Shown piece after piece: positions 18,699-30,413 of a DNA stretch of 64,000 nucleotides. The notes beneath the pieces were generated by a model. The model did not search any database. It was given only the letters and a program-made list of their open reading frames with translations, and was not told where the DNA came from. Numbering within the stretch: position 1 is the first letter of the stretch; each line of letters begins with the position of its first letter. The stretch comes from Sphingobium sp. TKS (GTDB lineage Bacteria > Pseudomonadota > Alphaproteobacteria > Sphingomonadales > Sphingomonadaceae), in the NCBI RefSeq assembly GCF_001563265.1, contig NZ_CP005084.1:814001-878000 (forward strand), written 5' to 3'. The translations under genes and the position numbers were made by a program.

Positions 18699-19161
18699 CC
18701 CGGCATGGCATGGCAACAACAATGCTCGTGGGCACCGTGCCCCGGGTCAGAGGCGCCCTTGTGCCGCTTCCCAATCCCGTGCCGTTGTCGATGCTGTTCG
18801 CAGGTGAATCTCGCCGAAACAGGTATCGAAGCTGGCAGCAATATCGCCCGTCTGCATTGAACACCGCCGGCTTCATAACCGACCAATGGCTCCTCAGAGT
18901 CGTCCGAAAAGCGAAATCCTCATAGACCGTCGCCAAGCCCCCGCGGGTCGTACATGTCAGGCTTTCGTACGCCTGCCGGCGCCCGAAACCCATCGACTTT
19001 GCGCTCGGTCCGCTCTCGAGAGCGGAACTGGAAAAGCGGACGCTAAGGCCACTCCTGAGACCCCCGGTTAGAAGCTGTAAAGGCGTATTGCGGCGGCAAC
19101 ACGGACCTTCCCGGGAAATCCCCTGCTTGGATGGTTGTCATCATCGACCTATATAAAGGCG
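18699..19161. other. Intergenic region with 18 bp perfect palindrome
   Basis: About 460 bp without a convincing gene; the short frames here are unconvincing. The left part probably belongs to the 3' end of the IS91-family element. An 18 bp perfect palindrome, TCCGCTCTCGAGAGCGGA, lies at 19009-19026 upstream of the sigma-like gene and could be an operator for the defence operon. The operon promoter should lie between it and about 19,300, but I cannot identify convincing boxes. Confidence 0.5.
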
Positions 19162-20079
19162 ATGGTGGGGGCACCAAGTCTGAAGACAACCGGGCACTCC
19201 ATCGACGCGAGATTTCGAGGGCGCTACAGCTGTCAAGGTGATGGCAGGCGTGAGCAGGGGGTGAGATTGGGGACTGGAGACGTAAGACCGCTTACTAAAT
19301 GCCGATCCAATGGCGCGCCATACAAGCGCCGCGTTGACGTCGAGGAAGATCTGAAGAGGCTCGTCGCGTTGCCGCGCGAGGAGATTGTTGCCGCCCTCAA
19401 GATTCGCGACAGGTCGTCACCGCATTATCTGAAGTCGGAATGCATCGTCTATCTGATACGGCAGACGCGTGCGAATAATGACGAGCGATATTTCGACGAA
19501 CTTTTCAGGGAGCTGATGCGCCGCATCGATGCCGCCTTACCTCGCGTCGCGGGCGAACGGGCCGATGGGCCGGAGAACGTCCATGCCGCAGCTGCGCGAG
19601 ATCACATCGCTGGCAAATTCATCGCTAAGTTGGTTGAGGACCGATCCACCCCCGGATCTTGGCTAGATTATTATGAGGTCATGTTTGCCGACGCCATCGC
19701 TGGGCTCCGCACGACATATATGTACCGGGCTAGGAGAGAGTCCGCCCGCAGCGAGCCGATCGAGGCTGACGATGAAACGAATGAGCCATCACTCGCCGTC
19801 GAACGCGCCGTTGGGAGTTTCGACCTCAAAAAGGAACTGCTTTCCGAAGATCCAATTTACCGGTCGCGCCTCGTTGCAGCGATAAGGAACCTACCAGACA
19901 AGCACCGCAGAGTCATCGAGCTGACCATGATGGAAATGCCAATCGATTCGTCCGACGATAGCGTTATGACAATCCGAAAGACGATCGGCGTCAAATCCGA
20001 GAAGACCGTTCGGAACCGGCGCGACGAGGCATACCAATTGTTACGGCAGGCTCTGTCGATTGGAGACGACAATGACTGA
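19162..20079 (+). CDS. Sigma-70-region-4-like protein of defence island
   Basis: Up to 305 residues from the first in-frame ATG; conserved-looking sequence starts only near VDVEEDLKRLVALPREEIVAAL (about base 19,340), so the true start may be a GTG or TTG near 19,261-19,340. The C-terminus resembles sigma-70 region 4: LPDKHRRVIELTMMEMPI followed by a TIRKTIGVKSEKTVRNRRDEAYQLLRQAL helix-turn-helix. The middle (YLKSECIVYLIRQ, DYYEVMFADAIAGLRTTYMYR) has the helical look of region 2. It may control transcription of the operon or have been recruited for another use. It overlaps the next gene by 8 bases. Confidence 0.65.
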   Translation: MVGAPSLKTTGHSIDARFRGRYSCQGDGRREQGVRLGTGDVRPLTKCRSNGAPYKRRVDVEEDLKRLVALPREEIVAALKIRDRSSPHYLKSECIVYLIRQTRANNDERYFDELFRELMRRIDAALPRVAGERADGPENVHAAAARDHIAGKFIAKLVEDRSTPGSWLDYYEVMFADAIAGLRTTYMYRARRESARSEPIEADDETNEPSLAVERAVGSFDLKKELLSEDPIYRSRLVAAIRNLPDKHRRVIELTMMEMPIDSSDDSVMTIRKTIGVKSEKTVRNRRDEAYQLLRQALSIGDDND

Positions 20080-20659
20080 CAGCAATGACCCCGCCGAGGA
20101 CATCCTCCTCGCGTTCGCGGTCGAGCCACAGCGGGACAGCGCGACATTGGAGCGCTATCTTAAGGCATATCCGTACCTCGCCGACCAGCTGATCGACCTG
20201 TCTCTCGACCTGCGACTTCAGCATGCGACGGAGGAGATCACAGCGCCGACCGACGAAGCATGGGTCGAAACCTCCCTTGCGGCCTTTCGGGCGGCTTCCA
20301 GCGCCCGAGCGTCCGAGCCTGTCGTCGATCCCTTCGCAAACACCAAGCCCGCCGAACTCGTGGCTCTACGCCAGTCGCTCGGTGTGCCCAGTGGTGTCAT
20401 CAAGGGCTTCAGCTCCAGACTCGTGGACATCATGAGCGTGCCCACATCGTTCATCGACGCCCTTGCTCAGGGACTGCGGACCACGACAGACGAACTGCGT
20501 CGTTTCATGGCCGGACCTCCCCGCCTCGCGCTCGGGGTTAGCTACAAGGCCGATAAGGCCCCGACCGCCGAGCAGGAGAAGATCTCGTTCGAGGATCTGC
20601 TCAAGCAGAACAAAGTTCCGGAAGAGCAGCTTCAGCGACTGCTGGCATCTCGGGATTGA
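20072..20659 (+). CDS. Unknown 195-residue protein coupled to sigma-like gene
   Basis: Starts at an ATG preceded by GGAGA and overlapping the sigma-like stop by 8 bases. The N-terminal half (ILLAFAVEPQRDSATLERYLKAYPYLADQLIDLSLDLRL) looks helical and resembles the sort of region that contacts a sigma factor. The second half (LRQSLGVPSGVIKGFSSRLVDIMSVPTSFIDALAQGL) reads like a degenerate helix-turn-helix of the Xre type. The gene ends 3 bases before the metallopeptidase-helicase gene. Antitoxin-like or anti-sigma-like proteins often precede ImmA/IrrE-type peptidases, so a regulator cleaved or controlled by the neighbour is plausible. I do not recognise the family. Confidence 0.6.
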   Translation: MTDSNDPAEDILLAFAVEPQRDSATLERYLKAYPYLADQLIDLSLDLRLQHATEEITAPTDEAWVETSLAAFRAASSARASEPVVDPFANTKPAELVALRQSLGVPSGVIKGFSSRLVDIMSVPTSFIDALAQGLRTTTDELRRFMAGPPRLALGVSYKADKAPTAEQEKISFEDLLKQNKVPEEQLQRLLASRD

Positions 20660-20662
20660 CCC

Positions 20663-23600
20663 ATGGATGCTGTCGAACTCGCGCGGCAGCGCGCCGCGGC
20701 GCTTCATGAGAAGGTAGTCTCGAAGGGCTCTGATCCGTGGGATCCGGGGGCGATAGTCAGAGCCGTCGCATCCGATCTAGGACTCGACATCGAAGCGGTC
20801 GAGCAGGGTAGCCTCGTGCTTGATGGTGGCAGGGCGCAATTCGACCCGATCTACAGGGCCATCCGGCACGAGGATGCAGGATCGACTTTCTACAAGGCTT
20901 TCCTCGTGGGCCACGAACTCGGCCACGCCACGCTTGGTGATGACCGCGTCGAGCACGTGGCGCACGACGTCGATCCGATGCGATCGTCTGAGGCGGCTCC
21001 GGTCGGTGAGGATCGCGTCGTGGACTACAGCCGACGGCAGCGGCGTGAGATCCAGATGGACCTCTTCGGTCGCGAACTCCTATTGCCGCGCGGATGGGTG
21101 CGGTCGCTCCATCTGGAAGGGATGACGGCTTCGCAGATCGCCGAAAGGATTCGCGCTCCATATGACGTCGTGGCACTTCAGCTTCTCGACGCCCTGCTCC
21201 TCCCGCAGATTGAGCCTGAATCAGAGGAAGGTGAGGCCAAGCCGCCCAAGCCCCTCAACGACGAGCAGCGCGAGGCTGCGGCCCACCGTGGCATACCCTA
21301 TCTTCTGGAAGCCGGTCCGGGGACGGGCAAGACCCAAACGCTGGTCGGACGCGTGGCCGGTCTCGTCGACGAAGGCATTGATCCGCGAAAGATCCTCGTC
21401 CTGACATTCTCGAACAAGGCTGCTGGTGAACTGACCGAGCGCATTGCCGGTCTCCGCTCAGAGGCGGCACCGGCAATGTGGATCGGCACATTCCACGCGT
21501 TCGGTCTCGACCTTGTTCGCCGATATCACAGTCGGCTGCATTTCCCCAAGGAACCCAGGATGATGGATCGCAGCGAGGCGATCACCATCATGGAGCGAGA
21601 ATATCTCGCTCTCGATCTCGTGCACCATCGGGAATTCATGAATCCCGACCGCCCGCTCAAGGACATGTTCACGGCGATTTCGCGCGCCAAGGACGAGGTG
21701 GCCGATGCCGATCGCTACGCCGCCCTCGCAAAAGATATGCTGGACAGGGCGACCGATCCGGCCGCACGCAAAGCGGCAGAGAGTTGTGCCGAAGTGGCGC
21801 TCGTTTACCGGAGATATGAAGAGCTGAAGCGGGGCGAGTGCGCGGTCGACTTCGGCGATCTGGTGGCCTTGCCCGTGAAACTCCTCGACACCGCGCCCGA
21901 CGTCGTTTCCATCCTGCGCGGCACCTACAGCCACATCCTCGTCGACGAGTATCAGGACGTGAACCGCAGCAGCGTGCGGCTCCTCCAGCATCTGACGGAT
22001 GGTGGCCAGAACCTCTGGGCCGTCGGCGATGCACGGCAGGCCATTTACCGGTTCCGTGGCGCCTCCTCGTTCAACATGTCGCGTTTCAGAAGCGAGGACT
22101 TCCCCGACGGAACCGGCGGTCGTCTCCGCCTCAACTATCGGTCGACACCTGAGATCGTCGAGGCCTTCTCTCGTTTCGGCGCCACCATGCAGGCCGGCAC
22201 CAGCGATGCAAAGCTCGACGCCCATCGACCGTCCAGCGGAATATCGCCCGAGCATGTGACCTTCGGTGACAATGACGACGAGGCCGCGGCGCTCGCCGAC
22301 GAAATTCTGCGCTGCTCCCAGAACGTGGCCTTCCGGGATCAGGCCGTGCTCTGCTCCGGAAACGATCGGCTCAACCGCATGGGACGTGAACTGGAGCGTC
22401 GCGGTATACCGGTCCTCTATCTAGGAAACCTCTTCGAGCGGCCCGAGGTGAAGGACCTGCTGTCCGTCCTGTCACTGCTCGTTGACCGGCGCGCAATGGG
22501 CCTCGTCCGCAACCCCTCGCTGCCGGATCTGGCAGCAGGCATCAGCCTGAAGGGTGCCGCGGCAATGATTGGCCATCTTCGGCTGGCCGAAGCTGACCCA
22601 CTCACGTGGACCGGTGTCTCACCGTCGATCCCGATGCTCGATGCGGCCGATATGGCGGCGGTGAACAAGGCTGGGGCCATGGTCGCCGGCTTCGATAGTG
22701 GCTCAAAGCCCTGGACTGTGCTTGCGCATGTCCTTCTGGATCGGACGCGCGCCGCAGCATCTCTAGCTTCAACAGACGATGTCGCCAGCCGATCGATGGG
22801 CATCGCAATCTGGCAGCTCATGGGCTTTCTGCAGGCTGAGCGCCCAGGACCGGGGCTGCCTGTTCAGCGCACTCTCGATGGTATCAGGCGACTAATCCAG
22901 CTCGCCGATGAGCGGGACCTTCGCCAGCTGCCGCAGGCGGCACAGGGCATCGACGCGGTCCGGCTCATGACCATCCATGGGAGCAAGGGGCTCGAATTTC
23001 CCGTCGTTCACGTGATGGGGCTGAACAAGAACGGCATGCCGAACTCGTGGCGAAAGCCTGCCTGCCCGGTGCCTGATGGCATGATCGAGGGCGGCAAGGG
23101 CGGCACGATGGAGATAGGTGCCGCAGATCATGCTCTCGAGCAGGAATGCTTGTTCTATGTGGCCACCTCCCGCGCACGGGACCGACTCCTGCTCTATTCG
23201 GCCAGGCAGACGGCAGCAAAGGCGCGACGTGATCCATCGGCCTTCATCGGCAAGCTGGGCATCAGCGCCATGCGGGAGGCGAAGGACAACGCCAACCAGT
23301 GTCCTGATCCAGACGATCTGCCGCTGCCGATCACCCTGGGTTCTGCTATCAGGATCACGACCGCCCAACTGAACCTCTACGAGCGCTGCCCCCGTCGCTT
23401 CCTCTACACCCATGTCCTTGGGGTGGGCGGACGCCGTACACCCACTACCATGACGAGGATGCACGACCTGGTGCGTGACGTCGTGACGGAGATCGCCTCC
23501 ACGCAGCCTTCCTCGACCTCGCTCGACGATATGGAGAGGCTACTGGAGCAGCGCTGGTCCGAAGGGCCGCTGGCCGGTGAGGAGTATCGGAAGCACCGCG

Positions 23601-24067
23601 ACGTGGCTGCGACGCTTCTGCAGCGGTTCGTGAGGATGAGGGCGGGCACGACCCGGATGAGTGCCGTGGGCCTCAAGGCGATTATTGGAACGAACACGAT
23701 CACGGCAGAGGCGGACGATGTCGTGGCCATGGCTGGCGGACGACATGCCGTCCGCATGGTCAGAACAGGACACAGCTCGTCGTCGACCGGGAAGAGTCTC
23801 GCGGATGCCGCCTTCCAGATCGCAGCATCTTTCTCTCTGCCGGGATGCAGTGCCGAGATCATTCACCTCGGGGATGACGAGTTATCAACGCCGGTCGCCT
23901 TCAATCCGAAACAGCTTGGGACAAGGGGTGAGAAGCTGGTCGAGATTTTCACGGCCATGGGCAAAGGGAGCTTCGCACCCGATCGGTCGGATCGCACCTG
24001 CCCGTTCTGCCCTGCCTTCTTCACCTGCGGTCCGGTGGTTGACGGCAGCCTGGAAAAAAATCTCTGA
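20663..24067 (+). CDS. ImmA/IrrE metallopeptidase - UvrD helicase - PD-(D/E)XK-like fusion
   Basis: A 1134-residue three-part protein. Residues 1-180: ImmA/IrrE-type zinc peptidase with HELGH at 84-88 and the downstream QMDLFGRELLLP helix providing the third ligand. Residues 195-860: superfamily 1 UvrD/Rep helicase with LNDEQREAA, Walker A AGPGTGKT (217-224), VDEYQDVN, GDARQAIYRFRGA, LNYRSTPEIV, MTIHGSKGLEFPVVHV and FYVATSRARDRLLLY. The C-terminal part resembles AddB/Cas4-type iron-sulfur nucleases: LYERCPRRFLY gives one cysteine and CPFCPAFFTC the other three. The catalytic lysine context (usually YKTG) reads MVRTGH, so nuclease activity is uncertain. Position before the ubiquitin-like operon suggests a defence effector or sensor. 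Confidence 0.88.
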   Translation: MDAVELARQRAAALHEKVVSKGSDPWDPGAIVRAVASDLGLDIEAVEQGSLVLDGGRAQFDPIYRAIRHEDAGSTFYKAFLVGHELGHATLGDDRVEHVAHDVDPMRSSEAAPVGEDRVVDYSRRQRREIQMDLFGRELLLPRGWVRSLHLEGMTASQIAERIRAPYDVVALQLLDALLLPQIEPESEEGEAKPPKPLNDEQREAAAHRGIPYLLEAGPGTGKTQTLVGRVAGLVDEGIDPRKILVLTFSNKAAGELTERIAGLRSEAAPAMWIGTFHAFGLDLVRRYHSRLHFPKEPRMMDRSEAITIMEREYLALDLVHHREFMNPDRPLKDMFTAISRAKDEVADADRYAALAKDMLDRATDPAARKAAESCAEVALVYRRYEELKRGECAVDFGDLVALPVKLLDTAPDVVSILRGTYSHILVDEYQDVNRSSVRLLQHLTDGGQNLWAVGDARQAIYRFRGASSFNMSRFRSEDFPDGTGGRLRLNYRSTPEIVEAFSRFGATMQAGTSDAKLDAHRPSSGISPEHVTFGDNDDEAAALADEILRCSQNVAFRDQAVLCSGNDRLNRMGRELERRGIPVLYLGNLFERPEVKDLLSVLSLLVDRRAMGLVRNPSLPDLAAGISLKGAAAMIGHLRLAEADPLTWTGVSPSIPMLDAADMAAVNKAGAMVAGFDSGSKPWTVLAHVLLDRTRAAASLASTDDVASRSMGIAIWQLMGFLQAERPGPGLPVQRTLDGIRRLIQLADERDLRQLPQAAQGIDAVRLMTIHGSKGLEFPVVHVMGLNKNGMPNSWRKPACPVPDGMIEGGKGGTMEIGAADHALEQECLFYVATSRARDRLLLYSARQTAAKARRDPSAFIGKLGISAMREAKDNANQCPDPDDLPLPITLGSAIRITTAQLNLYERCPRRFLYTHVLGVGGRRTPTTMTRMHDLVRDVVTEIASTQPSSTSLDDMERLLEQRWSEGPLAGEEYRKHRDVAATLLQRFVRMRAGTTRMSAVGLKAIIGTNTITAEADDVVAMAGGRHAVRMVRTGHSSSSTGKSLADAAFQIAASFSLPGCSAEIIHLGDDELSTPVAFNPKQLGTRGEKLVEIFTAMGKGSFAPDRSDRTCPFCPAFFTCGPVVDGSLEKNL

Positions 24068-24154
24068 CGAAAATTACCGGTCGGCTGTTGCTGGCGAGAT
24101 TGACCCTGTGAGACCGACGCAATCATGCCTAGGTCCGCAGGAATACAATAAAAC

Positions 24155-24898
24155 ATGCCCCTTATCGAAACCCCCGACATCGACGATGTCGCCCTCGCCG
24201 TGCAGGAGGACCGCCCCTTGCGCCCCGGACGCTACCGTGTGTCGTTCTCCCTCGACAGCGTCGACTTCAGCTCGCTCATTCTGGACGATCCCGTTCCGCT
24301 CGGTCGCCAGATTCTTAAGAAGGCTGGCATCAAGGACATCGACGGCCATTCCCTCTTCCTCATCACTCCCGAGGGCGACTTCGAGGATGTCCGGGCGGAC
24401 GAGGACGTCGATCTGCGTGACCGTGGCGCTTACCGCTTCATCGCGTTCAGCACCGACCCCCTCTACCGCATCAAGCTCAATGAAGCCCGCATCGTATGGG
24501 GCCGCTCGTCGATCCCCGAAGCGGTGCTGCGTGCGCTCGTCGACATCGGTGACGACGAAGCCGTGTTCCTGGAGGTCCGCGGTGGGAAGGACAAGCTGAT
24601 CGAACCGGGCACCGAGGCGGATCTCACTGGAGACGGCGTCGAGAAGTTCATCACGGCGCCCAACAAGGTCACCTATACCTTCTTCGTCAACGGCAAGGCC
24701 TATGAGACCGACAAGAAAAAGCTGACCGGTGCCCAGATCAAGGCGATGGTTCCGGACTGGGATCCGCAGCATGACCTCTCGCTGGAGGGTGAAGGCGACG
24801 ATCCGGATCGCATCATCCCTGATGACGAGTCCGTGAGCCTCGTCCCGAAGCACGGTGTCCGCCGCTTCTCGTCGGTCCCGAAGGCGAACTTCGGCTGA
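24155..24898 (+). CDS. Multi-ubiquitin-fold protein (bacterial Ubl)
   Basis: A 247-residue protein with three consecutive beta-grasp, ubiquitin-like repeats, at about residues 25-98 (RYRVSFSL ... YRFIAF), 100-168 (YRIKLNEARIVWG ... VEKFITA) and 170-236 (VTYTFFVNGKAYET ... DDESVSLV). This is the multiubiquitin arrangement known from bacterial E1/E2/JAB operons. It ends in a single C-terminal glycine (KANFG), the residue an E1 would adenylate without prior trimming. An AGGAAT ribosome-binding site precedes the ATG, and the stop overlaps the E2-like gene by 1 base. Conjugation substrate and targets are unknown. Confidence 0.88.
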   Translation: MPLIETPDIDDVALAVQEDRPLRPGRYRVSFSLDSVDFSSLILDDPVPLGRQILKKAGIKDIDGHSLFLITPEGDFEDVRADEDVDLRDRGAYRFIAFSTDPLYRIKLNEARIVWGRSSIPEAVLRALVDIGDDEAVFLEVRGGKDKLIEPGTEADLTGDGVEKFITAPNKVTYTFFVNGKAYETDKKKLTGAQIKAMVPDWDPQHDLSLEGEGDDPDRIIPDDESVSLVPKHGVRRFSSVPKANFG

Positions 24899-25281
24899 TG
24901 TCGGGCATTCTTGCAATGCAGCTGGAGCAGCTGCGGGAGCGCTTCGGCGATGTTCAGACCCGGCAGTTGCCGAGCGGCACCACGCTCGTCACCGTGCCGG
25001 GGGTTCGTCTGCCGGAGGGGTGGTCGAAGGCTTCGACCACCATCCGCTTCATCGTTCCCCCGGGCTATCCGTTCGCGCAGCTCGACTGCTTCTGGTCGGA
25101 CCCTGAGTTGCGCCTCGCTCACGGGGGGCCGCCGCAGAACTCGGCACCCACTCCGATCCCCGAGACCGTCGAGCCGGCTCTGTGGTTTTCATGGCATCTC
25201 ACGGGTCCCTGGAATCCCAACCGCGATACCCTTTCGACGTGGATGAACGTGGTGATCGATCGCATGAGGCAGGTGCAATGA
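24898..25281 (+). CDS. E2/UBC-like protein, prokaryotic family E type
   Basis: A 127-residue protein that fits the prokaryotic E2 family E: strand-rich core with TTIRFIVPPGYPFAQLDCFWSDPELRL and the C-terminal signature ALWFSWHLTGPWNPNRDTLSTWMNVV. The only cysteine is Cys64, within the YPF-DCFW strand, not after an HPN-like motif where classical E2 enzymes carry their catalytic cysteine. It may therefore act non-canonically or as a scaffold for the Ubl. It overlaps the Ubl gene by 1 base and the JAB-E1 gene by 4, so the three products are probably made together. Confidence 0.82.
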   Translation: MSGILAMQLEQLRERFGDVQTRQLPSGTTLVTVPGVRLPEGWSKASTTIRFIVPPGYPFAQLDCFWSDPELRLAHGGPPQNSAPTPIPETVEPALWFSWHLTGPWNPNRDTLSTWMNVVIDRMRQVQ

Positions 25282-26624
25282 GCCGCGTCCGCTTCCCTGC
25301 ACCTCTCTATTCTGACCTGGCGTCGACGCTGCTCGACGCCAGCGGTCTGGAGAGCTGCGCCATCGGCTATGCCCATTACGATGCGCATAGCGACACATGG
25401 ATCGTCGCCGATGCCAGCCCGGTGCCGGTGGATGCGTATGAGAATCGCACCTGCGTATCTGCGGTCCTCAAACCGTCCTTCCTCATCGAGGTGGCGCACC
25501 GCAGTCGGGTCACCGGTATGTCCGTCATCGGTATCCATACCCATCCCGACAGTCCGGGGCATCCTCGTTTTTCGCCGGTCGATGATGCGGGTGAAACCGA
25601 ACTGGGTTCATATCTTGGCCGGCGGGCGGCTCCGATGCCGCATGTCGCCTTGGTGATCGGACCGCATGGCTGCCGCGCTCGTCGTCTTGGGAGTGATGAA
25701 GAGGTGGAAGTGTGGGAGGTCGGGAAAGTCCTCAAGTTCCTTTCGCCCATGCAAGGTGTGACCGACCAGGAACGCGATGATCGGCAGGTGCGGGCATTCG
25801 GGGCGCCAGGGCAGAGGTTGCTGCGTCGCCTCCGCTTCGGCGTGATCGGTGCTGGTGGAACAGGGTCTCTGGCGTGCCAACAGCTTGCCCATCTCGGCGC
25901 GTCGTGGATAACAGTGATCGACCCCGACCTGATCGAGGCGACCAATCTCAACCGACTTGTCGGTTCCATCCCCTCGGATGTCGGGCAGCCGAAGGTCGAG
26001 GTTGCGGCCAGGATGATCCGAGCTATCAGTCCCGAAGCAACGGTGTTTCCGCACCAGGCGGACATCGTTGATGAGGAGGTAGCGAAGCTCATCGCGACAT
26101 TCGACTTCGTGCTTCTGTGCACCGATTCCCACGCGAGCCGGGCGGTCGTCAACCAAGCTGCCTACCAATATCTCGTGCCCGTGATCGACATGGGGGTCAG
26201 CATCACCGTCGCGAATGAGGCCGTTAGCCACATCACTGGGCGGGTGCAGATGCTCGCCACGGGGCTTCCCTGCCTGACTTGCTCGGGTGCCCTAGATGGC
26301 GAGGCGATCCGGCGGGAGATGCTGACCCCGGAGCAGCGGGCAGCGGATCCCTATGTCCATGGTGAGCGCGAACCCCAGCCTGCCGTCCTGTCGATCAATT
26401 CGACTGTGAGCTCGCTTGCGACGACCATGTTGCTCGGGGCCGTCACGCCAGTTCCGGTCAAGCCGCGCTATCAAATATACGATGGTATTCGCGGACGAGT
26501 GAAGGAAATGGCCGTCCCGGTGCAATCCGACTGCGTGGTGTGCTCTTCCATGGGCGCCTTGGCCAAGGGCTCCACGTGGAGCCTGCCTGTCCGGCCCGCC
26601 AACTGCCATAGGAGCGAAAAATGA
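25278..26624 (+). CDS. JAB isopeptidase - E1 activating enzyme fusion
   Basis: A 448-residue two-domain protein starting at the ATGA overlap. Residues 1-155: JAB/MPN metallopeptidase with the complete JAMM set, Glu25 in GLESCAIGY and H87-x-H89-x9-S99-x2-D102. Residues 180-440: ThiF/E1 adenylating domain with GAGGTG (191-196), Asp215, the ATNLNR arm, Lys239 and LLCTDSHASR. CxxC pairs at 332/335 and 419/422 can bind zinc. The E1 part should activate the Ubl C-terminus and the JAB part should remove or process it. This fusion is a hallmark of bacterial ubiquitin-like operons such as those described as antecedents of eukaryotic ubiquitin signalling. Confidence 0.92.
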   Translation: MSRVRFPAPLYSDLASTLLDASGLESCAIGYAHYDAHSDTWIVADASPVPVDAYENRTCVSAVLKPSFLIEVAHRSRVTGMSVIGIHTHPDSPGHPRFSPVDDAGETELGSYLGRRAAPMPHVALVIGPHGCRARRLGSDEEVEVWEVGKVLKFLSPMQGVTDQERDDRQVRAFGAPGQRLLRRLRFGVIGAGGTGSLACQQLAHLGASWITVIDPDLIEATNLNRLVGSIPSDVGQPKVEVAARMIRAISPEATVFPHQADIVDEEVAKLIATFDFVLLCTDSHASRAVVNQAAYQYLVPVIDMGVSITVANEAVSHITGRVQMLATGLPCLTCSGALDGEAIRREMLTPEQRAADPYVHGEREPQPAVLSINSTVSSLATTMLLGAVTPVPVKPRYQIYDGIRGRVKEMAVPVQSDCVVCSSMGALAKGSTWSLPVRPANCHRSEK

Positions 26625-27145
26625 CCGAACCCGCACGTATGGTCCGTATGCTTGAACCTGCGGAATACCGTGATCAGGCTGAGACATCACTGACCGCTCC
26701 CGGCGACGCCTCGATGGTCGTGCGTGTCCGGCCAAGATCAATCATCATGGCCTGTCCGGACGGGTGCGGCGAAACGCTGGTGATCAACCTGGATAGTCGT
26801 GCTGACAAGGCCTGGCGCTTTGACATGCGTGGAGAAGGACTCACTCTCTTCCCCTCGGTCTGGCGCGAAGGCGGATGCGAGAGCCATTTCATCGTGTGGC
26901 GCGGCCACATCCTGTGGTGCGATCGCTTCGAGAAGGGGAATCGCGAACCCATCTACAACCCTGGAATCGAGCATGCCGTTCTGAATGCAATGGATGACGT
27001 TCAGCCGCGCAGCGCCCTGGAACTCGCCGATGCAATTGACGAGCTTGTTTGGGACGTAAATCGCGTGGCTAGCCGTCTCGTCGGGCGCGGACTGGCCCGG
27101 TCAAGAAAGATCAACGGGGGCTGGATGTTTGTGCGCGAGCCATGA
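26621..27145 (+). CDS. DUF6527-type zinc protein of the Ubl operon
   Basis: A 174-residue protein coupled to the JAB-E1 gene by an ATGA overlap. Residues 40-110 carry the DUF6527 pattern: IMACPDGCGETLVINL, then GLTLFPSVWREGGCESHFIVWRGHILWC, giving four cysteines that could form a zinc ribbon. The C-terminal 50 residues (SALELADAIDELVWDVNRVASRLVGRGLARS) look like a winged helix. DUF6527 genes recurrently sit last in multi-ubiquitin/E2/JAB-E1 operons, so a role as adaptor or target-recognition component is reasonable. The function is not established by anything visible here. Confidence 0.78.
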   Translation: MTEPARMVRMLEPAEYRDQAETSLTAPGDASMVVRVRPRSIIMACPDGCGETLVINLDSRADKAWRFDMRGEGLTLFPSVWREGGCESHFIVWRGHILWCDRFEKGNREPIYNPGIEHAVLNAMDDVQPRSALELADAIDELVWDVNRVASRLVGRGLARSRKINGGWMFVREP

Positions 27146-27322
27146 TTATATAAACTGGGCGGTAGAACTCGACCAAAATAGAAGGCGCGGGCGAGGCTAT
27201 TTTGCCCGCGCAGTTCGCCAGAGGAGGCGATCCTTTGGAACAAGCGATTCGCCAATTGATAGCGCGCGAACTCCAGCCCATTCGACACACCGCGCGACTG
27301 CAGGGGGCGGTCGTCCTACCTG

Positions 27323-29008
27323 ATGGATATTGCGGCTACGATGACTCCCGATGGCTTCATAACCTTACTGGCGCTTGTGCTCGCCACACTCGGCTTCCTA
27401 CCACGAGTCCGCCAACTTCATTTGCGCGTGACGATGTGGCGCATTCTGGCTGTATCGTTACCTGCGCTCGTGCTGGTACTCTATTTTGAGTTTTACCCTG
27501 TCACACAGCTTCGATGCCCGGCAGCTTTCAGCGACGGTTTTTGTGCCGCGCTGATAATGAGCGATAAGAACCCCTTTGCGCCCCGTGACGCCGCTTTCGC
27601 GGTATCAGCGATATGGACGATATTCATTGGGATAATGTTCCAGATTAACGCGATCGCGCCAGGGTCACTTCCGGTTTTTAAGATTACAATCGACCGCTTG
27701 TTACGTGGGCGCGAGTATGCAACCCTAGTCGATCTTGTTGACCCGCAACTCGATCTCATTGGCCGCACGGAACAACGCCAGCTTTTGCGCCAGCGCCACT
27801 ATGACTGGTGGGCGCGACTTCGCGCGCCGAACCGGGGTCTGTTGATCGCGGGCCTGCCTTTTGGCGAGCGGACAGCACCGCCGTTGCGGTGGTGGCATCC
27901 TGTAGTGGCATGGACTCGTGAGAAAGCGGGATGGCTTGGGTGGATACTGCCTCATGGGCGAAACATCGAAGACGCAGCTAACCGGATCAGTAAAAAGCTG
28001 CTGACGGATCCGGGATTGCGCCGCTATCTTGTGCAGCACCGCCCTGCCTTTGGCGCGCGGCTGATGGTACTGCCGGGCTTTGTCGCCAGCAATTTCACGA
28101 AGCTCTTCATCACCGAATTAGCGGCGGATTCTGAAAGTACCTTATACCTTGAAATCGAGCAGTCTGGCGGTGCCGACCATTTCAACGGCCGTCGTTTCGG
28201 CGAAGATAGCCCGCTTCTAGCTGTCCTTCTAAACGACGCATCCGTGGTGGATACGATTGAGGCTTATACGCCGATCGCCGAGCATTTTCTTGCGCGGCTC
28301 AATCCGGATAATGACATCGCTTATGTCCGCTCGCTCAGTCTCAGGCCGGACCGACAATGGACTGATATCGGTTGCCATCGCGACCCGGGCATTGCAACGA
28401 TCACCTTCTTCGACTTGATGGTGACCAATGCTGCGCGGCAGGACGTGCAATCGCATGTTTGGCTGATGTACGCGGACCACTTCGTCAAAGCCTTGTTGAA
28501 GGTCCATGACGAGAGCGGTTCTGACGTAGATCGCACCGCTGAATGGCCGACCCGCAGCTCGGAGCTTTTGTATCGGATGGTGGCAGCGCTGACCGATTGG
28601 ATTGAGCTTGTATGTCGACTGCCCCAAGGCAACTACCATCGCGACACCGAAGGGCACACCCTAGACCGCAGCGAGAACCGGATTCCCCGTGCCGCGATCA
28701 TTACTCTTGGTGACGTCATCGAGCAAATCCTGCGTGCCGCCAATGTGGGAGACGAGTTCAAGGTCTATATCTTTGATGTGGCTGTGCGCTGCGTTCGCCG
28801 TCTACCGAAGGTCGGTGAGGACAAAGTTTTCCGGGATCTGCTAGTGCGAGTGCTGACCGGCGAAGCGTTGCTAAGCCGACGGGCGGAGTATGTCACTGCG
28901 GCTTGGGAATTCTACTGCGATATCGATCATGTCGTGCGGTTAGACACGCCTGATCTCGACGCTGCGCTCCAAGCGGCCCTGCCTTTTTCCCCGCCACCTC
29001 CGCCCTAG
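27323..29008 (+). CDS. Unknown membrane-anchored protein after Ubl operon
   Basis: A 561-residue protein with three hydrophobic segments in its first 115 residues (about 11-28, 38-55 and 90-108) and a large soluble part with no motif I recognise. Conserved-looking patches are EYATLVDLVDPQLDLIGRTEQRQLLRQRHYDWWARL, GLLIAGLPFGER and the tryptophan-rich stretch near residue 190. It ends in a proline run. The ATG has no clear Shine-Dalgarno. A TTG-started frame with GAGGAGG before it (27,235) enters the gene in another frame but looks like a leader at most. Location between Ubl genes and another orphan suggests a membrane defence effector, as inference only. Confidence 0.7.
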   Translation: MDIAATMTPDGFITLLALVLATLGFLPRVRQLHLRVTMWRILAVSLPALVLVLYFEFYPVTQLRCPAAFSDGFCAALIMSDKNPFAPRDAAFAVSAIWTIFIGIMFQINAIAPGSLPVFKITIDRLLRGREYATLVDLVDPQLDLIGRTEQRQLLRQRHYDWWARLRAPNRGLLIAGLPFGERTAPPLRWWHPVVAWTREKAGWLGWILPHGRNIEDAANRISKKLLTDPGLRRYLVQHRPAFGARLMVLPGFVASNFTKLFITELAADSESTLYLEIEQSGGADHFNGRRFGEDSPLLAVLLNDASVVDTIEAYTPIAEHFLARLNPDNDIAYVRSLSLRPDRQWTDIGCHRDPGIATITFFDLMVTNAARQDVQSHVWLMYADHFVKALLKVHDESGSDVDRTAEWPTRSSELLYRMVAALTDWIELVCRLPQGNYHRDTEGHTLDRSENRIPRAAIITLGDVIEQILRAANVGDEFKVYIFDVAVRCVRRLPKVGEDKVFRDLLVRVLTGEALLSRRAEYVTAAWEFYCDIDHVVRLDTPDLDAALQAALPFSPPPPP

Positions 29009-29318
29009 AGACGGGTATTGCCGCCTAACGCGGCGGCCACGCCAAGGTAGCCAAAAGGGTTGGGATGGCTGGAGCGCGCAAAAAAGGATTGTGCGGCGTT
29101 ATGCCATGTGAGTTTGGGTGGTCCAAGACGTCGACATCCGTGCCGCATCCGGGAGGCCGCCCAGACACGAGCCGAAGGTTCAGTCCTCAGCTTTGGACTC
29201 ATCGCCCGGTTCATCGCCATCCAGTTCAGCGATGCGTGCCTTTACTGCTTCGCTGAGATATGCGGCGTCGATCGTACGGAGATATCCCAGTCTCACGCGT
29301 ATTGGCTAAGAGGTTTTC
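29009..29318. other. 310 bp gap with possible 38-codon minus-strand ORF
   Basis: No ordinary gene. The one notable frame is on the minus strand from GTG at 29296 to TGA at 29180 (38 codons). It begins MRLGYLRTIDAAYLSEAVKA and ends in an acidic tail rich in Asp, Glu and Gly. It reads like a real protein fragment or antitoxin tail but lacks a Shine-Dalgarno. Longer plus-strand frames in this gap run into the next gene out of frame. Confidence 0.25.
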
Positions 29319-30413
29319 GTGCGTATATCGATCAATCAAAAGATGGTTGCGGATATCGACGCGCTGACGCGGCGCCATGCGATCGCGACGTCAACGAAGG
29401 GCGAACTCAAGCAGCTGTCCACACTTTTTGGGCCGACCTACCTGAAAGCCCTGCGCCATTTGCTTCAGAGAAGCTTCGTCCAAACGCGTGGAGCACGGTA
29501 CGATGTAACGATCCGGCTTGCGTGGATCGACAAGATCCCGCTTGCGGACATCGCCTCTGAGCCCGAACGAACTGAACTAGGCGACGCGGTGTTGTTCGCG
29601 TTTGACGAACTCGTCCTTCCCAATGGCAAAGGCCCAGGCATTACGCGCGCGCGCGCGACGCTGCTGCAGGCCAAGGTCACACAGACGCTCAACCAGATCA
29701 CCAAGCCGACCGTTCCGATTAGTCCGATGAAGGGATCCACCAAGAAGGAATTTGACCTCCTCTCCAAGTGGCCGCGCTTTGACTTGTTCAAGGCGTCCAA
29801 TTCCGATGTGGCGCTGGCCCAAGATGTTGACCTGCGAGGCAAGAAGGCAGGTACCCTACCATTTGGTTGGTACGTCGCTGCACCCCGTCTCAAATCGAGC
29901 GCCAAAAAGGCCGATACGTCGCATTGGAAATCGTGGTGGATGGCGGGACCGCCGATCCTCGGCCAGGCTTGCGACGTGACCTTTGGGGGCCTGTTGCAGG
30001 CGTTCTTCGCCGAGACGCCGTTGCCTCACGCAGGCAATCTCGAAGTCGGCGCGACCTTTTGTTGCAAGAGCTATCCTCCTGCCCCCGACCTACTCGAGGA
30101 CTGGGATCGGGTTTGTGCTGAGATCATCGCACTTGTCGAAAGCAGCAAGGCGCCACAGAGTCTCTTCGGGAATGATCCGCCCAGCCGCATGTCGGCCATG
30201 GAGTCGATCGGCTTTCCTGCGCAGTCAGGAGCTCTCTCAAACGGAATCAGTTCATCGCTTGCCTTCAGCATTGGACCGAAAGCCCACCCTGCTCAGATCC
30301 CTCGCCGGGAAAGTCGCGGCAGGCAGTTCCTGCGCCGGATACTCAACATCCTTGTCCGTCGGCGACGGATTCCGGTCGTCATAGTCCACACTAAGCTTAT
30401 CGAGGGTTTCTAA
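29319..30413 (+). CDS. Unknown protein with possible nuclease-like motif
   Basis: A 364-residue protein starting at GTG with AAGAGG 6 bases upstream. I do not recognise the family by name. One block, GDAVLFAFDELVLPNGKG followed by ARATLLQAKVTQ (about residues 87-120), has an acidic-hydrophobic strand then Q-A-K. That resembles the D...QxK layout of some restriction-like (Mrr-type) nucleases, a weak similarity. Other features are LPFGWYVAAPRLKSS, a CDVTFGGLLQAFFAE segment and a basic C-terminus (RRESRGRQFLRRILNILVRRRR). It is the last gene before the IS66 insertion and may be part of the defence island. Confidence 0.65.
   Translation: MRISINQKMVADIDALTRRHAIATSTKGELKQLSTLFGPTYLKALRHLLQRSFVQTRGARYDVTIRLAWIDKIPLADIASEPERTELGDAVLFAFDELVLPNGKGPGITRARATLLQAKVTQTLNQITKPTVPISPMKGSTKKEFDLLSKWPRFDLFKASNSDVALAQDVDLRGKKAGTLPFGWYVAAPRLKSSAKKADTSHWKSWWMAGPPILGQACDVTFGGLLQAFFAETPLPHAGNLEVGATFCCKSYPPAPDLLEDWDRVCAEIIALVESSKAPQSLFGNDPPSRMSAMESIGFPAQSGALSNGISSSLAFSIGPKAHPAQIPRRESRGRQFLRRILNILVRRRRIPVVIVHTKLIEGF

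Follow-up and report, generated by a model that had tools for sequence, protein, structure and literature searches.

A conserved trio of sigma factor, Xre-like partner and peptidase-helicase joined to bacterial ubiquitin-like cassettes by a pair of promoter-like elements

How bacterial ubiquitin-like (Ubl) systems are switched on is an open question. Here we describe a seven-gene locus of Sphingobium sp. TKS, lying at 19162..27145 of a 64,000-nucleotide stretch of contig NZ_CP005084.1 (positions 814,001 to 878,000, forward strand; hereafter the window), in which a Ubl conjugation cassette is preceded by genes for a sigma factor, an Xre-like partner and a peptidase-helicase protein, together called the trio. 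All seven open reading frames (ORFs) were found, on the + strand and in the order given by a preliminary description of the sequence, with the following features in and between them.

19261..20079, + strand: sigma-70-family factor with sigma-2 and sigma-4 regions; start codon uncertain (19162-19276)
19857..19885, + strand: intragenic sigma-type promoter-like element TTACCGGT-N15-CGATAA within the sigma gene; position weight matrix (PWM) score 17.6, with synonymous-choice upkeep across relatives
20072..20659, + strand: Xre-like partner ("gene2"), with an N-terminal helical domain, an Xre/Cro helix-turn-helix (HTH), a flexible SYKxDxxP linker and a two-helix tail
20663..24067, + strand: IrrE/ImmA-type peptidase (residues ~73-174; Peptidase_M78/IrrE 4e-8), UvrD helicase (~198-850; UvrD 6e-62) and predicted degenerate FeS PD-(D/E)XK domain (~899-1122; PDDEXK_1 5e-9), from Pfam and motif counts
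24074..24102, + strand: sigma-type promoter-like element of the Ubl cassette, TTACCGGT-N15-AGATTG; PWM score 21.1, conserved in the helicase-Ubl gap
24103..24154, + strand: 5' leader with a hairpin whose 3' arm bears a Shine-Dalgarno-like AGGA, from fold z-scores
24155..24898, + strand: triple ubiquitin-fold protein, Multi_ubiq (PF14452) in three stretches (Pfam, 1e-35), C-terminus ...KANFG
24898..25281, + strand: Prok-E2_E/RWD-like protein (Pfam, 6e-12) without a catalytic-type Cys (Cys scan; Iyer 2006, PMC1779556)
25278..26624, + strand: JAB-E1 (ThiF) fusion (Pfam; ThiF 2.4e-43, Prok-JAB weak at 0.0025 and under the family cut-off), with GxGxxG at residue 191, DxD...NxxR at 215 and a JAMM-like HxH...SxxD at 87
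26621..27145, + strand: DUF6527 protein (Pfam, 9e-18), predicted treble-clef Zn protein with CxxxC at residue 45 (CPDGC) and CxxH at 86 (CESH)

The sigma gene probably starts near 19261, since the 33 residues that the ATG at 19162 would add all fall outside the family-profile match. The tiny gaps reported for the upstream genes hold as short spacing, but the partner gene, starting at ATG 20072, overlaps the sigma stop by 8 nt, and the 87-nt gap between helicase and Ubl genes contains a promoter-like element and a hairpin. Rfam gave no match in window positions 18900-27400. As described earlier, no CD-NTase gene, the hallmark of CBASS, is present among the seven (Pfam, NCBIfam and PADLOC models). 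The surroundings are mobile: in the window, genes for TraG_N, an integrase and an IS91-type transposase precede the locus, and another transposase gene follows it.

The trio and the Ubl genes form one conserved locus type. A tblastn search over 72,556 plasmid records gave 85 with a helicase match covering at least 80% of the query; in five plasmid loci inspected (Mesorhizobium, Klebsiella, Acinetobacter, Leptolyngbya and Rhizobium; four picked from the helicase list and the fifth via an E1 match, Ubl genes being called by annotation or by our own hidden Markov models, HMMs) Ubl, E1 and DUF6527 genes lay downstream in 5/5. From a scan of genome_contigs (84,980 species) with a six-helicase alignment the best 80 loci of a larger family were taken, and loci were annotated by HMMs built for the analysis. 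Among 86 loci examined, 70 carried the small partner gene and the helicase, and 66 of these the sigma gene too; a coordinate/truncation filter keeps L024, L027 and L030, all with Ubl cassettes, and L082 (PARP) out of the 70. A Ubl cassette stood beside partner and helicase in 61 of the 64 testable loci (59 downstream, two divergent), a locus being testable if a cassette was present or the sequence ran on for 1500 bases or more past the helicase; the remaining six of the 70 end soon after the helicase. The exceptions without an adjoining cassette are L046, L059 and L058, and where this sigma is present the cassette is found in 59/60. Of some 20 trio loci that appeared to lack Ubl genes in an initial HMM pass, 18 proved on inspection to carry a divergent DUF7665-type Ubl cassette.

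The genome scan was seeded by helicases that all had Ubl neighbours, and hence a separate sample of 385 genomes of the window's class was searched. The helicase (E <= 1e-80) occurred in five, with an adjoining Ubl cassette in 5/5 (Multi_ubiq directly downstream in three, a DUF7665 cassette in two), while Multi_ubiq or DUF7665 (E <= 0.001) was found in 12 + 5 = 17 genomes, 12 of which lack the trio. The chance of all four other helicase genomes falling among the 16 other Ubl genomes is ~2e-6 (hypergeometric, own genome excluded). The trio is thus rarely found without Ubl genes, although Ubl genes often occur without the trio (12/17 genomes). The earlier suggestion that the two belong together is supported as one conserved locus type (61/64; 5/5), and both a chance neighbourhood and an absence of enrichment are rejected.

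The trio occurs with five kinds of Ubl cassette, A (the window's type) to E. In a helicase tree of 64 rows, from which L043, L062 and L081 were left out for broken reading frames, most deep branches carry cassette D, the others C (a Ubl-E2 fusion), B (triple Ubl plus DUF6791-E1) or A; C is not one clade, and E (Ubl, JAB and E1) occurs at two loci far apart on the tree. Locus L053 was typed as C in the 86-locus count; HMM annotation indicates type A with a phosphotransferase. Helicase relatives with a Ubl cassette come from eight phyla as named in the records, several being metagenome-assembled genomes: Pseudomonadota, Nitrospirota, Acidobacteriota, Chloroflexota, Verrucomicrobiota, Planctomycetota, Myxococcota and Cyanobacteriota. 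At L082:7916-15512 the trio precedes not a Ubl cassette but a WGR-PARP gene and an HHH protein, and the promoter motif described below is absent.

The helicase-Ubl gap measures 80-100 nt in 29/44 loci as called, and most gaps contain the two-box element TTWCCGGT-N14-16-CGATTR. A second site falls within the sigma gene, some 200 nt from its end; in five DUF7665-type loci (L048, L049, L057, L066, L075) and L051 it stands immediately upstream of that gene instead. A two-box matrix was trained on 43 gap sites, whose own high scores are therefore built in. With it, 47 of the 74 family loci reach at least 15 in the gap, and in 41 of these 47 the second site in or before the sigma gene does so too; as background, the reverse strand (2.1 Mb) held 10 sites scoring 14 or above, the best at 16.2. 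Both sites are also present in L129 (24.9/24.9) and L130 (15.2/17.1), which are outside the training set. Trio-less Ubl operons scored 1.9 or less in 18/18 cases over the 300 bases preceding their first gene, taken as the first Ubl-operon gene found by HMM (E1 in L119), and the element was not found in four loci that keep the partner with another gene upstream. The pattern matches twice in the window's 6.2 Mb genome, once in the helicase-Ubl gap and once at C2:767468 inside an ORF region, the latter probably by chance.

The two sites of a locus resemble each other. Both read TTACCGAC..CGATTA in L005 and L020, CGATGT recurs at both in L056 and TGATTA at both in L048, and L051 has a 16-nt spacer at both places; the pairs of L031-L034, L047 and L054 are imperfect, with a spacer of 14 nt in the gap against 15 in the sigma gene. 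In 27 loci, chosen by eye as representatives and forming a subset of a 36-locus test whose other nine pairs came from the mutual match itself, own pairs share 12.67 of 14 letters, whereas 10,000 re-pairings averaged 11.44 and never exceeded 12.04. In several loci with a diverged sigma the pair has diverged too and still matches (CTTCCGGTTTTT..TCGCTCC, TTCCGAT..CGACTT and TCCCATTTTTC..GCTTCA). Among 18 loci further tested, nine (six with a diverged motif) match at 14-15 of 15 letters between upstream and gap sites, controls giving 10-13; the other nine, at 9-13/15, fall within the control range, and include L132, where the sigma start was mis-set (14 otherwise), L040, whose second site lies outside the stretch searched, and L057, whose spacers differ by one.

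Codon choice within the sigma gene favours the intragenic site. In an alignment-based test covering 54 of 57 rows, the synonymous codon that preserves the motif was taken in 28/33 cases for CGG (expected 8.0), 27/32 for ATT (8.8), 32/33 for xCG (10.7), 33/35 for the preceding T (9.8) and 33/33 at the fifth position (18.0). With synonymous codons biased towards the motif at each of the five positions, conservation of the protein is not enough to explain the intragenic site. The DUF7665-type loci, with no more than 14 scorable codons, show no clear excess. Related loci are not independent, and the pair and codon figures are to be read as strong trends and not as calibrated probabilities. This promoter pair, which ties the genes together, was absent from the preliminary description, made by eye.

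Downstream of the gap element, the first 46 nt past the -10 box form more stable folds than shuffled versions of them (mean z -2.37; 50 of 52 leaders), with mean z of -0.37 and -0.16 in two sets of control stretches (Wilcoxon 2.5e-10 and 5.6e-11 against leaders). The window leader reaches z -5.2 over 46 nt and -4.3 over 58 nt, the 3' arm of its hairpin covering the AGGA ahead of the Ubl start, and across the loci listed the stems vary in sequence yet pair. RNAalifold on a MAFFT alignment of the leaders returned no pairs, so that the hairpin claim rests on per-sequence fold z-scores.

The first gene, previously called sigma-like, is placed in the sigma-70 family by its family profile, which matches sigma factors, the sigma-4 region strongly and the sigma-2 region mainly by fold; the gene alone has no Pfam match and weak NCBIfam sigma matches only. 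Its partner is an Xre/Cro-type HTH protein by modest fold and profile matches, with DdrO among the nearest folds, and carries an extra N-terminal domain beyond the Xre-like part. Foldseek alone gave no match at E <= 0.001 for either model. The N-terminal domain of the partner follows the sigma gene: it is different in 4/4 loci without this sigma (-0.8 to 0.8 bits), where HTH and tail are kept. In 72 other partner ORFs the model of this domain gives 40 bits or more; as it was built largely from its own high scorers, the evidence lies solely in the low scores of the four loci kept out of it. The place of the sigma is taken in L046 by a sigma-ECF-like gene (TIGR02937 1.7e-4) and in L059 by a replacement 95% identical to it, and in L021 and L055 by another gene without a sigma assignment, the Ubl operon being divergent there. 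Such joint replacement (coordinates L046:8855-9984 and L055:4376-5576) would be expected if the N-terminal domain binds sigma. The partner is proposed as an anti-sigma, acting through that domain, and as a candidate substrate of the peptidase.

The third protein had been read as a peptidase-helicase-nuclease fusion, of which the first two parts stand and the third is predicted to be inactive. The HExxH of the peptidase and the Walker A and DEYQD motifs of the motor are intact in 65/65 helicase relatives, and the four FeS cysteines are present in 64/65, the remaining one being a gap. We take the peptidase to belong to the same metallopeptidase family as IrrE/PprI of Deinococcus. In the PD-(D/E)XK domain the acid of (D/E)xK is absent in 65/65 rows and the Lys position holds K in 7 and R in 40, this position having been set from the D-x-K-T-G pattern and row L043 being out of frame there; the domain is predicted to be degenerate, with its catalytic residues lost. 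Candidate relatives on viral contigs, 11 loci in one scan, were rejected as they match only query residues 178-873, i.e., the UvrD core.

Pfam supports the earlier calls of triple Ubl, family-E E2-like, JAB-E1 and DUF6527 proteins, with Prok-JAB below its cut-off and a JAMM-like motif present. The sole Cys of the E2-like protein, residue 64, does not seem to lie at the active-site position, and its family is described as without a catalytic Cys in Iyer 2006 (PMC1779556). The E1 of the window has four Cys in two pairs (332/335 and 419/422) and none between the pairs, which leaves an E1 thioester uncertain. In type B the triple Ubl (L003-L006, L017-L020 and others; e.g., L003:10482-11237) ends in ...TVQS or similar instead of Gly, which puts classical C-terminal activation in doubt; the type B E1 has an N-terminal DUF6791 in the one scanned, and a separate E2 is absent. 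Type D consists of a two-repeat Ubl, DUF7665, JAB and a divergent ThiF-like protein (e.g., L057:13488-16391 and L066:7996-10954, with JAB and ThiF-like members below family cut-offs), and DUF7665, which has GxCLYLPC in two sequences, is perhaps an E2-like enzyme.

The cassette is a known one. It resembles operon type 6e (Iyer 2006, PMC1779556) in its multi-beta-grasp protein, inactive E2/RWD-like protein, JAB domain N-terminal to E1 and treble-clef Cys/His protein, the window showing Multi_ubiq repeats, a standalone E2/RWD-like protein between Ubl and E1, the JAB-E1 fusion and treble-clef-like pairs; the second metal pair is H-x2-C in type 6e and C-x2-H in the DUF6527 protein. The same paper has a type 6e variant with another N-terminal domain on E1, here probably DUF6791, whereas, as far as its available text goes, a sigma factor, an Xre-like partner or an IrrE-helicase upstream are not described and "helicase" occurs 0 times (PMC1779556). 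Bub operons share a DNA-damage-type controller upstream of the Ubl operon (CapW, CapH+CapP or CapK+CapS), carried by 219 + 59 of 544 operons in the accessible portion of PMC13373217, which would leave 266/544 without the counted controllers if the two sets do not overlap. CapP/CapH in particular has the same logic of an IrrE-type peptidase and an Xre-like substrate (available text of PMC13373217), and here the HExxH peptidase, intact in 65/65, is encoded beside an Xre/Cro-type HTH protein as candidate substrate. The Bub controllers are, however, repressors or repressor inactivators in that available text, whereas here the controller is a sigma with putative promoters of its own, and peptidase and helicase form a single protein; helicase, ECF, IrrE and ImmA occur 0 times each in the text of PMC13373217.

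In IrrE/PprI-DdrO of Deinococcus (PMC10904395) the partner is likewise of Xre type, DdrO being an IrrE substrate, and activation by single-stranded DNA (ssDNA) is proposed for the present locus by homology. DdrO is a repressor; the partner described here stands beside a sigma gene and possesses an additional N-terminal domain, and its peptidase shares a chain with UvrD and a nuclease domain predicted to be dead. ECF sigma/anti-sigma pairs are known to be released by regulated proteolysis, as for RseA and RsiW. They share with this locus the overlapping genes of sigma and partner and the proteolytic release proposed here, but involve membrane site-1/site-2 proteases, where we have a soluble IrrE-helicase and two pattern matches genome-wide.

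From the gene linkage, the sigma identity, the promoter pair and its co-variation, the intact peptidase and motor motifs and the dead nuclease, we infer a self-contained sigma-factor switch, and we regard its control of the Ubl conjugation cassette as probable, though with a good deal of reserve. A dedicated sigma factor would have two target promoters in its own locus, one in or before its own gene and one before the Ubl gene. At rest, the Xre-like partner would keep it inactive through the N-terminal domain. The helicase/FeS part may engage abnormal DNA (single-stranded stretches or ends left by phage replication or by damage) and in doing so activate the IrrE-type peptidase, which would cut the partner in its conserved flexible SYKxDxxP linker, at a site predicted between about residues 146 and 170. 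The released sigma would then transcribe partner and helicase from the first promoter and, from the second, the Ubl cassette, whose mRNA would begin with a hairpin covering the ribosome-binding site; the output would be Ubl conjugation to targets, possibly in defence. Activation by ssDNA is stated for PprI (IrrE-type) and for CapP in the available parts of PMC10904395 and PMC13373217, respectively. Cleavage of an Xre-like anti-sigma by IrrE, releasing a sigma that fires both promoters, appears to need the fewest assumptions, and the earlier idea of proteolysis and DNA sensing upstream of Ubl conjugation is still the best reading of the sequence.

The same peptidase could instead cleave a classical repressor of CapH/DdrO type, the partner binding both sites as operators and the sigma serving as an accessory activator. 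We consider this rather unlikely. The Xre/Cro HTH of the partner and the presence of DdrO in its fold list would agree with it, as would the four loci that retain partner and helicase without this sigma. In two of seven trio-less plasmid Ubl operons inspected, a divergent HTH and ImmA/IrrE pair stands in the place of the trio, as in CapH+CapP; the trio would thus seem to be that peptidase-Xre scheme recast around a sigma and a helicase. The site itself, however, consists of two boxes 14-16 nt apart and is not palindromic, in contrast to the operators of Xre dimers, and it is absent from 18/18 trio-less Ubl operons and from the four partner loci with another upstream gene. A direct effector acting on phage DNA in the manner of Gabija or RecB, with Ubl conjugation tuning or targeting it and sigma and partner only regulating, seems less likely again: the UvrD motor matches DRT-helicase and GajB models (PADLOC) and its motifs are intact in 65/65, but a nuclease output is not expected where the PD-(D/E)XK acid is missing from 65/65, a loss that weakens any active helicase-nuclease effector, and the invariant peptidase site points to proteolysis as the output. 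Gabija GajB is also a UvrD-type helicase; here the helicase has an N-terminal peptidase, a fused degenerate nuclease and another neighbourhood, and there is no GajA-type gene among the seven.

A different question is what the sigma-factor switch would serve. A DNA-damage or stress-response island in place of an anti-phage system is quite conceivable, if not what we would expect: a Bub operon controller is DNA-damage-induced, phage protection by Bub operons is not shown in the available text of PMC13373217, and the trio of L082 precedes a WGR-PARP gene. The patchy distribution and the plasmid or mobile setting are, on the other hand, usual for defence loci, and the whole regulatory mechanism would be common to both uses. 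That trio and cassette are independent genes co-carried on mobile elements is scarcely credible; TraG, integrase and transposase genes do lie near the locus in the window, but the Ubl cassette adjoins in 61/64 loci and the promoter element is common to loci of eight phyla.

The sigma-type promoter pair is newly described here, and a literature search of titles and abstract openings, which did not cover the main Bub studies, found no description of this trio or controller. If the sigma-factor switch is real, Ubl operons would have a control logic not described before, a sigma encoded in the locus whose promoters lie mostly within that locus, spread over eight phyla by record title, with regulatory DNA kept inside coding sequence across distant bacteria. 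We hold it an even call whether this amounts to a further class of DNA-activated controllers of immune or stress operons, in which a private sigma is released instead of a repression being lifted: a nuclease domain would have been decommissioned, an Xre-derived anti-sigma would be cut and only two promoters would be fired, one of them embedded in the sigma gene itself through synonymous codons. The switch would have been adapted to five or more different Ubl cassettes and, in L082, to a WGR-PARP gene as a possible other output. The locus offers testable parts, namely the two promoters, a linker in which cleavage may occur and a domain that may hold the sigma, besides a promoter signature for finding relatives.

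Some rhizobial-plasmid type A operons (L001:9341-10864) insert a phosphotransferase-like gene (TCAD9/APH) between E1 and DUF6527, which is absent from the window. A Roseomonas mucosa plasmid (L007:9001-10685) has no trio; DUF6527 and a JAB-E1 fragment of 85% identity lie there flanked by IS21 elements, in what looks like a decayed copy. Downstream of the locus, window positions 27323-30413 contain two ORFs of 561 and 364 amino acids without a Pfam match at E 0.01.

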